DNA from: Halegenticoccus soli
GTDB taxonomy: Archaea; Halobacteriota; Halobacteria; Halobacteriales; Haloferacaceae
DNA: 64,000 bases
Direction of reading: 5' to 3'
Assembly (NCBI RefSeq): GCF_002844195.1
Contig: NZ_PEND01000004.1
Span: 310,001 to 374,000 of the forward strand
The first letter of the stretch is position 1. Each line of letters begins with the position of its first letter. Position numbers and translations under genes: made by a program. This document shows positions 41,298 to 46,934 of this stretch, one piece after another. The notes under the pieces were generated by a model. It did not search any database. It was not told where the DNA came from and was given only the letters and a program-made list of their open reading frames with translations.

Positions 41298-41789
41298 TCA
41301 GTCGTGATCGGGACCGGACATTTCCTCGTCGGGCGACTCGTCGGGGGCGTCACCGCCGTCCGGATCGGCCTGGCCGTCCTCCTCGCCTTCCTCGTCCTCC
41401 GGAGCGTCGGCCGCCGGGCGGGCGCTCGACGGGGACTCGGTCTCCGGTCGCGCCGGGGGCGTCCCGTCGGCCGGGCGATCCGACACCGGGCGCTCGCGGC
41501 CCTCGGGCCGAACTCCGGGACCGTCCGAACTTTCCGGGCGGCCCTCGGTCGGCGCGCCGAGCCGGGGCGAGCGGTCCCGCCGACGCCTCCGTTTCTCGAC
41601 GTCCCACCCCTCGAAGATCCCGTACTCGGTCATGGTCGTCATGCCGGCGAGGGCCGCGCGGAGTTTGAGGCCCACGAGGGGGACGTCCGCGACCGTGATG
41701 ATCACGTCCGCCTCGACCACGGCCCCCTTCTCCAGGAGCACGTCCAGCAGGTCGACGAGCGCGTCGTCCGGATCACGCGTTGGTTCCAC
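41298..41789 (-). CDS. gvpM: gas vesicle protein GvpM with long acidic tail
   Basis: A 163-residue protein. Residues 1-62 are the GvpA/J/M core (DALVDLLDVLLEKGAVVEAD and VIITVADVPLVGLKLRAALA). GvpM is usually about 85 residues; here about 90 extra residues rich in Arg, Pro, Glu and Asp follow. GvpM is a minor hydrophobic protein that with GvpJ and GvpL helps start vesicle assembly. It uses a GTG start inside the end of gvpL (17-base overlap) and is the last gene of the gvpFGHIJKLM operon. Confidence 0.92.
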   Translation of the reverse strand: MEPTRDPDDALVDLLDVLLEKGAVVEADVIITVADVPLVGLKLRAALAGMTTMTEYGIFEGWDVEKRRRRRDRSPRLGAPTEGRPESSDGPGVRPEGRERPVSDRPADGTPPARPETESPSSARPAADAPEDEEGEEDGQADPDGGDAPDESPDEEMSGPDHD

Positions 41790-42591
41790 GCGCGTCCTCC
41801 CCCAGATCGGGCGTGAAGGTGTACGGCGGCCACGGCCCGGTGAACCTGACCTCGACCCCCGGCTCCGCCGCGATCGATTCCAGCACGTCGCCGAGCGCGT
41901 CGGCCCCCTCGTCGGTCGCGAGCGCGGCGAAGCGCGCGAACGGCTCCGCGTCCGACGCCTCGCCGACGTCGAGCCCGGTCGACCGCCGCTCCCCGAGGTC
42001 GTGCAGTTCGCGCACGTGCGGCCGGAGGCGGTCCGCGAGCGACCCCGCCTGCGCCTCGCGCCGCGCGCGCAGCTCCCGCCGGAGCTGCCGCTCGTACTGC
42101 TTTTCGAGGAGAAACCGCGTCCCCTCGGACGCCTCGTCGACGCGGTCCCGAAGCTCGCGGAGCTCCGCGTCCCCCTCGACGACGGCCTCGGCGGCGGCCT
42201 CCTCGTCGCGCGCGACCTCGATTCGGTACTCCCAGTGGCCGGCCAGGGCGTCGAGGTGCGTCCGGAACGTTTCCGACTCTTCGCGGAGCCACTCGCGGAC
42301 CCGGTCGTCGCCGCCCTTGAGGATCGTGTCGAACTGGAACGGCAGCGGCGTGCCGAACGCCTCGCCGGCCTCGTCGACGACTTCCTGGTGTCGCAGCAAC
42401 CACCGCTTGATCTCCGCGGGGGCGTCCGAGTCGTAGAGCGCCTCGCAGGGGTGGACGACCGCGCCGAGTCCGTCGGCGGCGACGACCGACACCGGTTCGC
42501 CGTCCACCCCGGTCGCCGAGAACTCCGGCTCCGCGCCCTCGTCCAGGCGCACGACGCAGTACAGGTACCGCCCCTCGTCCAAGTCGGTCAT
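41773..42591 (-). CDS. gvpL: gas vesicle protein GvpL
   Basis: A 272-residue GvpF/GvpL family protein. It begins RYLYCVVRLDEGAEPEFSAT, has the conserved PFQFDTILKGGDDRVREWL, a helical middle and the end VRFTGPWPPYTFTPDLG. GvpL is a minor vesicle protein that interacts with several other accessory Gvps, acting as an assembly hub. Overlaps gvpK by ATGA and gvpM by 17 bases. Confidence 0.95.
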   Translation of the reverse strand: MTDLDEGRYLYCVVRLDEGAEPEFSATGVDGEPVSVVAADGLGAVVHPCEALYDSDAPAEIKRWLLRHQEVVDEAGEAFGTPLPFQFDTILKGGDDRVREWLREESETFRTHLDALAGHWEYRIEVARDEEAAAEAVVEGDAELRELRDRVDEASEGTRFLLEKQYERQLRRELRARREAQAGSLADRLRPHVRELHDLGERRSTGLDVGEASDAEPFARFAALATDEGADALGDVLESIAAEPGVEVRFTGPWPPYTFTPDLGEDARGTNA

Positions 42592-42950
42592 CGTTCGGTT
42601 CCGCTCGCGCGGTCGCCTTCGGTTTCGCCCGATTCGCCGATCACGCCGTACTCGACGCCCGGCCGGCCCTCGACCCGTCGGAGCGCGTCGTCGACCAGCG
42701 ACGAGAGGTCGCCCCGGAGCCGGTCGACGCCGTCCTCGATCCCCTGGTCAGCTTTCAGCCGGTCGACCTCGTCCTCCAGGGCGGCGAGCTGCGCGCCGAG
42801 GCGCTCGATCTCCTCGTCCGTGAGCGACCCGGACTCCATGCGCCGAACCGCCTCCCGCTCCAGCGCCTCGACTAAGAGTTCGACCACCGCGACGACGAGC
42901 GTCAGCAGCCCGTCAGACGCCTCCTCGCCGTCGAGATCAATCGTCGTCAT
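42588..42950 (-). CDS. gvpK: gas vesicle protein GvpK
   Basis: A 120-residue mostly helical protein: GLLTLVVAVVELLVEALERE, RRMESGSLTDEEIERLGAQL and LSSLVDDALRRVEG are family features. GvpK is among the eight proteins needed for vesicles; its exact role is unclear. It overlaps gvpJ by 14 bases. Confidence 0.94.
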   Translation of the reverse strand: MTTIDLDGEEASDGLLTLVVAVVELLVEALEREAVRRMESGSLTDEEIERLGAQLAALEDEVDRLKADQGIEDGVDRLRGDLSSLVDDALRRVEGRPGVEYGVIGESGETEGDRASGTER

Positions 42951-43494
42951 CGTCGCCCTCCTCGCTCACCTCGCCCTCCTCGCTCGCCTCGCTCGTCTCG
43001 TCCGCCGAGTCGCTTCCGCCGCCCTCTCCGGAGTCCGACTCGGCGTCTTCGACCCCCGAACCGTCCCCGTCGGCCGCTTCGCTCCCGTCGTCCTCGTCGA
43101 CTTCCGGGTCGGCGTCCTCGTCGACTTCCGGGTCGGTCACGGTCGGCCCGTCGACCGGGGCAGCGACGGCGATCTCCGCCCTGTCGCGGTCGTCCTCGCC
43201 TTCGCCCTCGTCCCCGTCTTCGTCCCCGCCGGACGCCGCGTCGAGCGGTTCGAGGTGGGCCGATCGGCCGGACACCTCCCTGACGCGCTCCATGTCGGTC
43301 CCCTCGGGGAACTCCAGGCCGTACTGCGCCGCGGTCTCGAACGAGGCGATGGCCGCCCTGAGCTGGATCCCCAGGAGCTCCGTCTCGCCGATCGTGACGG
43401 CGATGTCGGCGTTGATCACGACGCCCTTGTCGAGCAGCATCTCGACCACGTCGGCGAGGCTGTCCGACCGGCGCGTGGGTCCGCCGCTACCCAT
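42937..43494 (-). CDS. gvpJ: gas vesicle protein GvpJ with long acidic tail
   Basis: A 185-residue protein. The core SLADVVEMLLDKGVVINADI and AVTIGETELLGIQLRAAIAS is homologous to GvpA. GvpJ is normally about 100-115 residues; here the C-terminal half is an acidic tail with repeats of DEDADPEVDEDD type. It is required for vesicle formation and probably initiates the conical ends. ATG 43494 is the likely start; the alternative three codons upstream lies inside gvpI. Confidence 0.93.
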   Translation of the reverse strand: MGSGGPTRRSDSLADVVEMLLDKGVVINADIAVTIGETELLGIQLRAAIASFETAAQYGLEFPEGTDMERVREVSGRSAHLEPLDAASGGDEDGDEGEGEDDRDRAEIAVAAPVDGPTVTDPEVDEDADPEVDEDDGSEAADGDGSGVEDAESDSGEGGGSDSADETSEASEEGEVSEEGDDDDD

Positions 43495-44353
43495 CGTCCT
43501 CACCTCGCTCTTTCCGGAAGCGGGACCCGTAGATCCGCTCGTGGTTCGGGGCGTTCGAGTAGCGCGTGTCCCGCGGCACCGTCGAGAAGCGCGCCGCGCC
43601 GGACACCGCGGTCCGACGCCGCGGCACCGTCGAGTAGGCCGTCGGGTTCCGCGACGAGGGCTGGTCGAGCGACCCGACGCGCGCTTCGTTCTCCGCCCGG
43701 AGCGCGTCGAGCCGCTCGTGGGTCTCGACGATCTTCTCTCTGAACACCTCGACGGAGTCGCTCAGCTGCGACTGGATGGCGACCTCGTACTCGCTCAGGT
43801 CGTCCAGCTCGTCCAGGTCCGCGTCGGCTTCGAGGGCGTCGCCCGCGTCCACGTCGAGGTCCGCGTCCGAGAGCATCCCGTCGTCCCCATCGCCCTCGCC
43901 GCCGCCCGTCACGTCCTCGACCGCGTCGTCCAGCTCCCGCTTGTTCTGCCAGAAGTCGCGGACGTCGACGCTGTCGAGGAGTTCGCCGAGCTCGATCAGG
44001 CGCAGGAGCTTCCCGCCGTCGACGGCCTCGCCCGGATCGGCGTTCGCGACGGCGTCGGGGATCGCGTCCGCGTCGATCGCCTCCGGAAGCTCCTCCACGT
44101 CGACCGCGTCGGGCAGGTTCTCGAAGTCGATCGTCTCGAGCAGCTCCCGGACCTCCTCGACGAGCCTCTCGACGTCGTCGAGGCTCGACAGCGGGCCGTC
44201 CGCCGCGCCGTCGCCCCCGTCCTCGTCGACGCCCTCCTCGGTTTCGTCGCCACCGCCGTCGAGGCCGTCGAGAGCGCCCTTCAGCCGGGTAGTGAGGTCT
44301 TCCAGGTCCACCTCGCCCGCGCCGTCGTCGGACGCGGATCGGTCGTCGGTCAC
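43487..44353 (-). CDS. gvpI: gas vesicle protein GvpI, N-terminally extended
   Basis: A 288-residue protein. The last 50 residues (RNPTAYSTVPRRRTAV and YSNAPNHERIYGSRFRKE) carry the basic GvpI signature. The first 200 residues are acidic and helical (LSSLDDVERLVEEVRELLET) with runs of Asp/Gly. GvpI is usually about 140 residues. It is not strictly needed for vesicles but affects their shape and strength. It overlaps gvpH and gvpJ. Confidence 0.85.
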   Translation of the reverse strand: MTDDRSASDDGAGEVDLEDLTTRLKGALDGLDGGGDETEEGVDEDGGDGAADGPLSSLDDVERLVEEVRELLETIDFENLPDAVDVEELPEAIDADAIPDAVANADPGEAVDGGKLLRLIELGELLDSVDVRDFWQNKRELDDAVEDVTGGGEGDGDDGMLSDADLDVDAGDALEADADLDELDDLSEYEVAIQSQLSDSVEVFREKIVETHERLDALRAENEARVGSLDQPSSRNPTAYSTVPRRRTAVSGAARFSTVPRDTRYSNAPNHERIYGSRFRKERGEDDG

Positions 44354-44841
44354 GGCTCCTCCCCCTCCCGCCCGTCGGTCGCGTCCCGGAGCCGGAGTTC
44401 GAGGACGCCGTTGTTGTAGGTGGCTTCGCCGACGACCAGTCCCGCCCGCGACAGGTCGACCCGAACGACGGTGTCGCCGTCGGCCGCGACGGTCAGCCTC
44501 CGCCCGTCGACGCCCGCGGCCAGCGTCTCCGGGTCGACGTCCGGCAGGTCCGCGACGACGATCGCGCCGTCGGCGACCTCTCTGACGCTGACGGGGCGGT
44601 CGGTCGCCGGGGGTTCGTCGGTCCGCGAGGGCCGCGAGCGCTCCCCCTCGTCGCGGAGGCTCCCGACCCGGATCGAGTAGCCGTACTCGGCCTTCCGTCC
44701 GCCGGATCGGGCCACCCCGCGCCGGGTCTCGACCCGGGAGCCTTCGGCGTCCAGTTCGTGCAGCGTTTCGAGGACGCGCCGCAGCGCGCCGACGAGCCCG
44801 GCCGGCTCCCCGCGGTCGGGGGCTCGGTCGTCGTCGGTCAT
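44350..44841 (-). CDS. gvpH: gas vesicle protein GvpH (Hsp20-like)
   Basis: A 163-residue protein. The C-terminal half has the alpha-crystallin pattern: DGAIVVADLPDVDPETLAAG, then LTVAADGDTVVRVDLSRAG and NNGVLELRL. The N-terminal half is a GvpH-type helix (LVGALRRVLETLHELD) followed by a Tyr/Arg-containing linker. GvpH interacts with accessory Gvps as a chaperone and is dispensable in Halobacterium. Four-base overlaps on both sides. Confidence 0.93.
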   Translation of the reverse strand: MTDDDRAPDRGEPAGLVGALRRVLETLHELDAEGSRVETRRGVARSGGRKAEYGYSIRVGSLRDEGERSRPSRTDEPPATDRPVSVREVADGAIVVADLPDVDPETLAAGVDGRRLTVAADGDTVVRVDLSRAGLVVGEATYNNGVLELRLRDATDGREGEEP

Positions 44842-45089
44842 CCCATCACCTCGACTTTGCCGCTGACGCGTTCGTGCGCCTCCTCGGCCGCGTCGAGTTC
44901 GGCTTCGAGCTCCGCCTTTCGCCGCTCGTACTCGGCCTCCGAGCGCTCGCCGAGTTCGTACAGCAGTTGGTTCTCCTTGATGTCGTCCATGATCGCCTCC
45001 CTGTCGTACATTTCGTCGATCGCCATCGCGTGGATGACGTCGAGGATCGACACGAACGGTTTGACGAGGAGATCGTCTACGAGGAACAT
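44838..45089 (-). CDS. gvpG: gas vesicle protein GvpG
   Basis: An 83-residue protein, normal family length. The first 40 residues (MFLVDDLLVKPFVSILDVIH) are the conserved hydrophobic part; the rest (YERRKAELEAELDAAEEAHE) is a coiled coil. GvpG is a required assembly protein. It starts 10 bases after the gvpF stop and overlaps gvpH. Confidence 0.95.
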   Translation of the reverse strand: MFLVDDLLVKPFVSILDVIHAMAIDEMYDREAIMDDIKENQLLYELGERSEAEYERRKAELEAELDAAEEAHERVSGKVEVMG

Positions 45090-45099
45090 GCGTTCTGCG

Positions 45100-45732
45100 T
45101 CACCGTCCCTGCGCTCCGATCTCGATGTCCACGAAGTTGTACGGCGCCCAGGGGCCGTTGTACTGGACGCGAAGCGTCTCCCCGTAGTCCTCGCGGATCG
45201 CCTCGACCGCGTCGCCGAACGCCTCCTCGCCGTCCCGCTCGACGAGGTACGCGCGGTTCAGCACGAGCCGGTCGCTGTACAGGTCGTCGTCGGTCTCGCG
45301 GGCGCTCACCTCGGCCAGCCGACCCCCGACGTCCTCGCGGATCGCCTCCCGGTCCAGGTCCGCGCCCTCGTCGGCGACGAGCTTCACGCCGAGTTCGATC
45401 ATCCCGTCGACGTCGTTGAGCGCCTGCCTGAAGGCGCGGCGGCCGCCGCGCAGGACGCTCTTCAGCGTCCGGCCGCTCTTGAACGTCATCCCGAACTGCA
45501 TCGGCACGATCGTGCGGCCGCCGTCGTACAGGAGCACCTCGCGGAGGACCTCGTCGTGCGCGCGGGCGTTCTCGTCGGTCCGCTCCGGTTCCATCGTGTC
45601 GATGTCGCTCACGACGGCCGACAGCGTCCGATAATCGACCGTCCGGATCGGCGTTCCGCCGTCGACGCCGCGCTCGTCCAGCTCGATCGACTCCTTTTCG
45701 ATCACGCCGTAGGTGTACAGGTTCGAACTCAT
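45100..45732 (-). CDS. gvpF: gas vesicle protein GvpF
   Basis: A 210-residue GvpF/L family protein: NLYTYGVIEKESIELDERGV, VPMQFGMTFKSGRTLKSVLR, then DDLYSDRLVLNRAYLVERDG and the end YNGPWAPYNFVDIEIG. GvpF binds GvpA and is thought to bring it to the growing vesicle wall. First gene of the FGHIJKLM operon. The start at 45732 overlaps the stop of a 21-residue upstream ORF; longer in-frame extensions cross the promoter and are rejected. Confidence 0.95.
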   Translation of the reverse strand: MSSNLYTYGVIEKESIELDERGVDGGTPIRTVDYRTLSAVVSDIDTMEPERTDENARAHDEVLREVLLYDGGRTIVPMQFGMTFKSGRTLKSVLRGGRRAFRQALNDVDGMIELGVKLVADEGADLDREAIREDVGGRLAEVSARETDDDLYSDRLVLNRAYLVERDGEEAFGDAVEAIREDYGETLRVQYNGPWAPYNFVDIEIGAQGR

Positions 45733-45794
45733 GACGGGCCATCCCCGTTGACTGTTCCGCGCGCCGGGGCGTCGCGCGGTGGTTCCGTCGCCAT
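45729..45794 (-). CDS. 21-residue upstream ORF coupled to gvpF
   Basis: Reads MATEPPRDAPARGTVNGDGP plus Ser and stops at a TGA overlapping the gvpF ATG (ATGA). A TTGTTTACC element lies 33-40 bases before its ATG. It may couple translation of gvpF or be non-functional leader sequence. Confidence 0.35.
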   Translation of the reverse strand: MATEPPRDAPARGTVNGDGPS

Positions 45795-45920
45795 TTCTGT
45801 CCCTAGGTACGAGTGGTCGTCGTCGGGGTAAACAATGACGGCCGTCGAGCCGTCCGATCGGGGGCTCCGCCGCCCGTTCTATTCGGACGATTGTCATCTA
45901 TGACGGTTCGGCCAGTGCCG

Positions 45921-45926
45921 TTAAGG
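45921..45926 (+). promoter_or_regulatory. gvpA promoter TATA element
   Basis: CCGTTAAGGTC places a TTAAGG box about 27 bases before the gvpA ATG at 45951, as expected for a strongly expressed haloarchaeal gene with a short leader. I do not see the upstream GvpE-binding motif known from Halobacterium, consistent with the absence of gvpE here. Confidence 0.5.
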
Positions 45927-45950
45927 TCGACACGGGTGTTTCATGAACCG

Positions 45951-46226
45951 ATGGCATCCGAACGTCCCGGTTCATCCAGCCTGGCAGACGTCCTTGATCG
46001 CATCCTGGACAAGGGCATCGTCATCGACATCTGGGCGCGGATCTCCGTCGTCGGGATCGAGATCCTCACGGTCGAGGCGCGCGTCGTGGCGGCGTCGGTC
46101 GACACGTTCCTCCACTACGCGGCCGAGATATCGAAGATCGAGCAGGCGACGCAGTCGGGCGACTTCGAGGACCTGCAGGACCTCGAAATCAAACAGTCCC
46201 CGGCGATGCGCGCCCAGTCGCAGTAG
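45951..46226 (+). CDS. gvpA: gas vesicle structural protein GvpA
   Basis: A 91-residue protein. The core [20 protein letters not shown] and [20 protein letters not shown] is the highly conserved GvpA fold (helix-strand-strand-helix) that forms the ribbed, gas-permeable wall. [14 protein letters not shown] closes the core. The C-terminal tail ([18 protein letters not shown]) is longer than usual by about 15 residues. It heads a short gvpAO operon, divergent from gvpFGHIJKLM. Confidence 0.96.
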
Positions 46227-46271
46227 CGCCCCCGACCACCGACCGATCCCCCATTTCACGAGGAATCACAC

Positions 46272-46934
46272 GTGTCCGAAGCCGAATCGGAGACAGCCGA
46301 CGACCGCTGCCGAGCGCTGACGGAGGACGGCACGCGGTGTGCGCGCCCGGCGCAGGAGGACGGATTTTGCTACCAGCACGACGAGAGCGATCCGACCGCG
46401 GACGAGTCGGACGCCGATGCGTCGGCTGCGGGGGACGGGGACGCGTCGGGTGACGACGAGGGCGCGTCGGCCGACGACGATGAGGGCGCGTCGGCCGGCG
46501 GGGACGAAGACGACAAGGCCGCGGAGGGCGAATCGTCCGAGGGGCGAGACGGCGTGAGCGACGAAGCCGAGTCAACTACGGATATGAGCGAAGAATCGAC
46601 CGAGGAAGGCGAGTCAGACGCCGAAAGCGAGTCCGAGGCCGAAAACGAGTCGTCCGCCGAAAGCGGCGCGAACCCCGATCTCATGACGGTCCGGGACACG
46701 GTGTTCGACCTGGCGGCGGACGTCATCGGCCGCGATCTCGACGGGATCACCGAAGTGACGAAGGACGACGACGGCTGGCGGGCCGTCGTCGAGGTGGTCG
46801 AGCGCCGATCGGTCCCGGACACCCAGGACATCCTGGGCCGATACGAGATCGAACTCGACGAGGGCGGCGACATCCACGGTTACCGCCGCCTCGACCGCTA
46901 CCGGCGGAGCGACACCGCGGCCGACGAGTTCTAA
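46272..46934 (+). CDS. gvpO: gas vesicle protein GvpO with N-terminal Cys/His motif
   Basis: A 220-residue protein with GTG start. The C-terminal 90 residues are a normal GvpO domain (TVRDTVFDLAADVIGRDLDG, GWRAVVEVVERRSVPDTQDI, LGRYEIELDEGGDIHGYRRL). The N-terminus has Cys at 13, 23 and 33 and His at 36 (CRALTEDGTRC, GFCYQHD), the CX9CX9CX2H pattern of small zinc motifs. About 85 disordered Ser/Asp/Glu/Gly residues separate the two. GvpO is required for vesicles in halophiles and affects gvpA expression. It sits directly after gvpA; gvpC and gvpN, usually in between, are missing. Confidence 0.92.
   Translation: MSEAESETADDRCRALTEDGTRCARPAQEDGFCYQHDESDPTADESDADASAAGDGDASGDDEGASADDDEGASAGGDEDDKAAEGESSEGRDGVSDEAESTTDMSEESTEEGESDAESESEAENESSAESGANPDLMTVRDTVFDLAADVIGRDLDGITEVTKDDDGWRAVVEVVERRSVPDTQDILGRYEIELDEGGDIHGYRRLDRYRRSDTAADEF

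Follow-up and report, generated by a model that had tools for sequence, protein, structure and literature searches.

A conserved N-terminal Cys3-His module on the gas vesicle protein GvpO of Halegenticoccus soli and its possible role as a docking tag

The gas vesicle protein GvpO encoded in a 64,000-nucleotide stretch of the Halegenticoccus soli genome (hereafter the window) is an ordinary halophile-type GvpO, and the fusion of its core to a small N-terminal Cys3-His module is already catalogued in databases. Our reading, to which we give slightly less than an even chance, is that this module serves gas-vesicle assembly as a docking tag, stabilised by zinc and carried on a flexible acidic tether. 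In Halobacterium salinarum GvpO is essential for gas vesicles, its function being described as unknown in PMC9501494, and it binds GvpA, C, N, F, I and L and assembles into homo- and heterodimers (PMC9372576). A preliminary description of the window had presented the protein as a GvpO with a zinc-like motif fused to it. What stands of this is a conserved Cys3-His module found in many genomes; the novelty of the fusion does not stand, NF045806 having been named for it.

The gvpO gene adjoins gvpA within a gvp cluster whose genes gvpF to gvpL are divergent (Table 1), and the gap between gvpA and gvpO is too small to hold gvpC or gvpN. The window's genome gave no match to GvpD (PF07088), none over the cut-off to GvpN, and none to the GvpC repeats (PF05465), which were likewise not found in the window GvpO itself. 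The direct succession of gvpA and gvpO seen in the window cluster (41298-46934) is also present in the Halegenticoccus locus L074. At 288 aa the GvpI-like protein is double the size of its H. salinarum counterpart (144 aa); its N-terminal half is acidic and its C-terminal end basic, and it has no Pfam match. A second, distant GvpO is encoded elsewhere in the genome (G000:C1:617401-617748, minus strand; L002, L201); it shares 49% identity over residues 98-214, has no zinc module and no other gvp gene called in the surrounding 14 kb, and a lone GvpO resembling it also occurs in L157. A scan for viral contigs confirmed none of 10 candidates.

Table 1. Features of the gvp cluster in the window, and GvpJ-type proteins of other loci that bear the module (locus coordinates)
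Feature	Positions	Strand	Basis or remark
gvpO coding sequence, 220 aa	46272..46934	+	GTG start; PF05800 match; start context kept in L074
C-x9-C-x9-C-x2-H motif, Cys13 to His36	46308..46379	+	identical spacing in 64/64 module-bearing GvpO frames
DUF5763 / GvpO_arch_Nterm module, residues 11-47	46302..46412	+	NF045806, PF19067; 70% mean identity with 31 orthologues
acidic low-confidence linker, about residues 48-134	46413..46673	+	41% Asp+Glu; 18% mean identity; pLDDT mostly <50
GvpO core domain PF05800, predicted helix and four strands	46644..46913	+	Pfam; AlphaFold2 pLDDT ~95 mostly
gvpA, directly upstream of gvpO	45951..46226	+	PF00741, 53.8 bits
gvpF (GvpL/GvpF family), divergent	45100..45732	-	PF06386, 156 bits
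gvpG	44838..45089	-	PF05120
gvpH	44350..44841	-	PF05455
gvpI-like protein, 288 aa	43487..44353	-	custom profile based on H. salinarum GvpI
gvpJ-type protein (Gas_vesicle family), without zinc module	42937..43503	-	PF00741
gvpK	42588..42950	-	PF05121
gvpL	41773..42591	-	PF06386, 222 bits
gvpM-like frame	41298..41789	-	by eye, from sequence only
GvpJ-type protein with C-terminal DUF5763	L112:3553-4359	-	
GvpJ-type protein with C-terminal DUF5763	L202:3935-4459	-	
GvpJ-type protein with C-terminal DUF5763	L203:4971-5705	-	

Read from the GTG at 46272, the gvpO frame translates as VSEAESETADDRCRALTEDGTRCARPAQEDGFCYQHDESD... and places Cys13, Cys23, Cys33 and His36 at a spacing of C-x9-C-x9-C-x2-H. 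The pattern claimed in the preliminary description is confirmed by this translation and by two profile matches, one to the NCBIfam model NF045806 at residues 11-45 (75.1 bits, cut-off 52, E=2.3e-21) and the other to Pfam PF19067 (DUF5763) at residues 11-47 (58.9 bits, cut-off 26.3, E=3.4e-16); matches of this strength put it far outside what chance would give. The GvpO domain PF05800 spans residues 125-214 with 96.2 bits against a cut-off of 25. Translation beginning past the motif had been named as a possible objection, and it fails: in the closest relative found, Halegenticoccus tardaugens L074 (59% in the GvpO similarity search, 82% in the core columns used for the tree), a GTG stands at the equivalent position in a nearly identical DNA context. 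Of 62 GvpO frames with the module, 40 have their last Met ahead of the motif 11-12 residues from the first Cys. A start codon further downstream, which would leave the motif out of the protein, is rejected on the strength of the L074 context and of a module conservation far above that of the linker.

The 31 other rows of alignment A2 are on average 70% identical to the window sequence in the module (residues 11-44) and 59% identical in the core, against 18% in the linker between them. Every one of the 64 GvpO frames matched by the module profile has all four motif residues at the exact spacing. Since that profile came from frames first chosen with a looser Cys/His pattern, the residues are in part selected for being present, while their exact spacing is unselected. 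No degenerate copies of the motif were seen among the other GvpO N-termini inspected by eye, and the poor Cys/His conservation that had been foreseen as a possible refutation is not what the relatives display. Taken together, the difference in identity between module and linker and the retention of all four residues indicate strong purifying selection. From the residues we infer that the module is of a zinc-binding type. In an AlphaFold2 model made from 32 sequences the core has a pLDDT of ~95, with one helix, four strands and a short C-terminal helix, the module reaches about 70-75, and the linker is mostly below 50. A Foldseek search with the whole GvpO model returned no solved structure at E<=0.001, and by sequence neither module nor core came closer to a solved structure than E of about 0.9; the one phmmer match of the module, SAP30L at E=0.91, is not evidence of a relationship.

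A profile search of 391 genomes drawn evenly from the class found PF05800 in 161 and NF045806 above its cut-off in 120, of which 118 lie within the 161 GvpO genomes; these genome counts are fairer than locus proportions, yet they do not prove that both domains sit in one gene. NF045806 is missing from 43 of the 161 GvpO genomes, and two genomes (G214 and G341) have the module without any PF05800 match. The same fusion was thus found in other genomes, and a fusion peculiar to this one is ruled out by the curated NF045806 and by the many fused relatives. The related statement that known GvpO proteins are without the motif holds for the laboratory (Halobacterium) type and not for GvpO in general. 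The product name "halophile-type" also appears in the public annotation of a Natronorubrum bangense plasmid. Within the window's own genome a profile search found DUF5763 once, in the gvpO gene only. A search of mainly open-access literature found no paper naming DUF5763 and none on a GvpO module or tag exchange.

To place the module among gvp clusters we surveyed loci from the best 80 of 146 relatives by GvpO similarity, all from named organisms, further loci surrounding gvpO in the 43 GvpO genomes that lack NF045806, and some extras, with gvp genes called by custom profiles seeded from the H. salinarum cluster. After removal of duplicates 114 distinct loci remained, 105 of them with at least four other gvp families, and because they were picked by similarity or by NF045806 absence rather than at random, their proportions are not frequencies. 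At its N-terminus GvpO is either bare or carries one of three modules (DUF5763, a helix-hairpin-helix or an unnamed helical one), which makes four kinds. Where GvpC is absent and at least four other gvp families are present, GvpO is tagged in 87 of 91 loci (zinc 58, unnamed helical 24, helix-hairpin-helix 5), and no recognised tag was found in the clusters L126, L127, L161 and L166. Among GvpC-bearing loci tagged GvpO was found in 0 of 16, with L158, a 17th GvpC locus whose GvpO is untagged by eye, standing outside this tally. Counted by genome, NF045806 is present in 0 of 14 with strong GvpC repeats versus 118 of 147 other GvpO genomes, three genomes with one weak GvpC repeat match each being excluded from the comparison. 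On GvpO, PF14520 (HHH_5) scored 33-65 bits in the four copies scanned (L132, L137, L170, L191), and the unnamed helical tag, with the pattern TIDELRDELDxIDD...GAKEAIxERL, had no Pfam match over a cut-off. Some loci hold more than one GvpO: two divergent genes, one zinc-type and one untagged, in the Haladaptatus-type L078, L096, L110, L111, L119, L153 and L213, and a tandem pair, one helical-tagged and one not, in the Halocatena-type L147, L150 and L151, where GvpH- or GvpI-like genes follow the pair.

In a tree of 122 GvpO cores (92 columns, from a quick search that left many forks open) the tag state changes 9 times, and the zinc label alone changes 7 times on the best tree, with 2 changes forced by well-supported branches. 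A single branch (SH-aLRT 95) separates all 16 GvpC loci from the rest. Because they form a single GvpO clade, the mutual exclusion of GvpC and tag may be one event, and because there is only one independent pair, the GvpC contrast, striking as it looks in a simple table, has no claim to significance once descent is counted.

Tags are found on proteins other than GvpO as well. A C2H2 finger stands at the C-terminus of GvpC in 14 of 17 copies, and the GvpC of L175 (446-1984, plus strand) ends instead in HHH_5 (37.9 bits, cut-off 27), the Pfam family (PF14520) shared with the HHH_5-tagged GvpOs. Two GvpC-like proteins (L187:7634-8869, plus strand; L200:5419-6462, minus strand) have an unnamed helical C-terminal end; neither these ends nor the N-terminal parts had a Pfam match over the cut-off, PF05465 had no match in the genomes of either, and their identity as GvpC comes from a custom profile and gene order only. 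The genome of L200 holds a separate cluster with a zinc-type GvpO as well. DUF5763 itself stands at the C-terminus of three GvpJ-type proteins (PF00741 + PF19067; Table 1), and in L112 and L203 a zinc-type GvpO is encoded in the same cluster. These GvpJ cases are few, yet they tie the module to gas-vesicle proteins beyond GvpO alone, and DUF5763 on such proteins points more to assembly than to gene control. It is also present on proteins without a visible gvp link (L204, L205, L207, L211). Those of L204 (3362-4129, minus strand) and L205 (3974-4744, plus strand) are 256-257 aa long and have the same N-terminal module, by eye no GvpO core, and no other gvp genes called nearby, and proteins of ~185-190 aa in L207 (3989-4558), L209 (3974-4531) and L211 (3992-4546), all on the minus strand, carry a C-terminal DUF5763-like module.

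A regulatory reading, which goes back to the preliminary description, would have the zinc module give GvpO a grip on nucleic acid and thereby control over gvpA expression where GvpD and GvpE are lacking; we consider it unlikely. It draws on the absence of GvpD from all tagged clusters (0 of 58 zinc, 0 of 24 helical, 0 of 5 helix-hairpin-helix) and of GvpE from nearly all, with a match in one helical locus, L147, and also on PMC5496347, in which GvpO is termed a potential transcription regulator and Haloquadratum without gvpDE is taken to suggest another regulation. However, the 16 GvpC loci divide into 8 with GvpD and 8 without, and GvpO is untagged in all of them, so that the proposed stand-in for missing GvpD/E is found in 0 of the 8 GvpC-bearing loci where GvpD is missing. 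As the best reading a GvpD/E substitute is therefore rejected, the tag being absent with GvpC whether GvpD is present or not. The clearest evidence against it is that GvpD changes 4 times inside the GvpC group while GvpO stays constantly untagged. The module on GvpJ-type assembly proteins counts against a regulatory role too, as do the Gvp partners and the dimers of H. salinarum GvpO. Helix-hairpin-helix domains usually bind nucleic acid, and it is chiefly because they occupy the same place in other GvpOs that regulation through nucleic acid keeps the small probability we allow it.

It is similarly improbable, in our judgement, that the module is a mobile tag with no fixed role, swapped at the ends of acidic tails by recombination and serving mostly solubility or drift, with the GvpC pattern inherited once. 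The single clade of GvpC loci would fit such a history, and so would the four untagged GvpOs in clusters without GvpC and the occurrence of DUF5763 on other proteins. It sits poorly with the purifying selection on the module, and with the 87 of 91 GvpC-less clusters that keep some tag despite the 9 changes of tag state on the tree. More unlikely still is a zinc or redox sensor, in which metal loading or Cys oxidation would switch GvpO and buoyancy would follow the metal or oxygen state: three Cys and one His are conserved and gas vesicles give access to oxygen, yet other GvpOs hold Cys-less helix-hairpin-helix or helical modules at the equivalent position.

In the docking explanation that we favour, the folded GvpO core would be joined through a long, acidic and probably disordered tether to the small Cys3-His module, which is predicted very likely to fold around one zinc ion and would tie GvpO to a partner in the forming vesicle, such as the shell, or in the accessory or assembly machinery. 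Because the window cluster has no gvpC, we infer that the module may fill the position occupied in Halobacterium-type clusters by GvpC's C-terminal zinc-finger domain. In H. salinarum a C-terminal GvpC fragment, described with a zinc-finger motif, binds GvpN and GvpO and gives its strongest signals with F, H, I and L (PMC9372576). A replacement of this kind is consistent with the distribution of tags over loci with and without GvpC, a contrast that amounts to one independent comparison on the tree, so that the exclusion may have arisen only once and the data leave too little for any test to become significant. Several observations weigh against docking. DUF5763 is a different motif from the C2H2 finger of GvpC; L126, L127, L161 and L166 have neither GvpC nor a recognised tag; the zinc-type GvpOs of Haladaptatus share their locus with a second, untagged GvpO; helix-hairpin-helix, as a usually nucleic-acid-binding fold, is a poorer fit to docking between Gvp proteins; DUF5763 also occurs on the proteins of L204, L205, L207 and L211 without a gvp link; and the module has no clearly related solved structure and a pLDDT of only about 70-75. 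The window cluster may moreover be silent, because the species without gvpC and gvpDE named in a review (Halopiger, Haladaptatus, Natrinema, Natrialba and Natronobacterium) are all Vac-negative (PMC4390858).

A wider proposal, possible and on balance doubtful, is that gas vesicles of haloarchaea depend on a single small tag at a protein end, carried on an acidic tether, that this tag has moved between carriers in evolution, and that GvpC-less clusters survive because GvpO took over both the tag and the part that the GvpC C-terminus plays in docking or as a scaffold. The tag could then be a zinc finger, a helix-hairpin-helix or the unnamed helical module, and its carrier the GvpC C-terminus, the GvpO N-terminus or, at times, the GvpJ C-terminus. 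Should nucleic acid be what the tags bind, the vesicles may be anchored to DNA, mRNA or ribosomes while they assemble. The finding that GvpC and GvpO bear tags reciprocally offers a testable handle on the role of both proteins, and suggests that vesicles engineered for display could take fusions at a second site in addition to GvpC. The laboratory H. salinarum GvpO, as used in PMC9501494, is untagged, while most surveyed GvpO genomes (118 of 161) are tagged.

Set beside known systems, the window protein agrees most fully with NF045806 ("gas vesicle protein GvpO, halophile-type"), which likewise has a 35-residue N-terminal module on a GvpO core; nothing essential differs, and the window copy starts with GTG. 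Compared with other module-bearing GvpOs, its acidic linker is longer (80 residues in the measured stretch, with 41% Asp+Glu, versus a median of 45), and Ala rather than the usual Ser follows the second Cys. Pfam PF19067 (DUF5763) matches the window module in Cys/His pattern and in length, and is a family of unknown function that is found on proteins other than GvpO as well. The GvpOs of L132, L137, L170 and L191 resemble the window protein in joining a core to a small N-terminal module through an acidic linker, with HHH_5 in place of the Cys/His module. GvpO of H. salinarum (pNRC100, L063) shares the core (PF05800, 120.7 bits), whereas at 119 aa it has only PF05800 and no N-terminal module, and it is accompanied by GvpC, D, E and N. 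It is the C-terminal domain of H. salinarum GvpC that, like the window module, forms a small zinc-finger-type unit on an acidic tail; its finger is a C-terminal C2H2 (CxxC...HxxxH; PF05443, 27.5-28.3 bits, cut-off 25.4), a motif different from DUF5763 and with no sequence relation shown to it.
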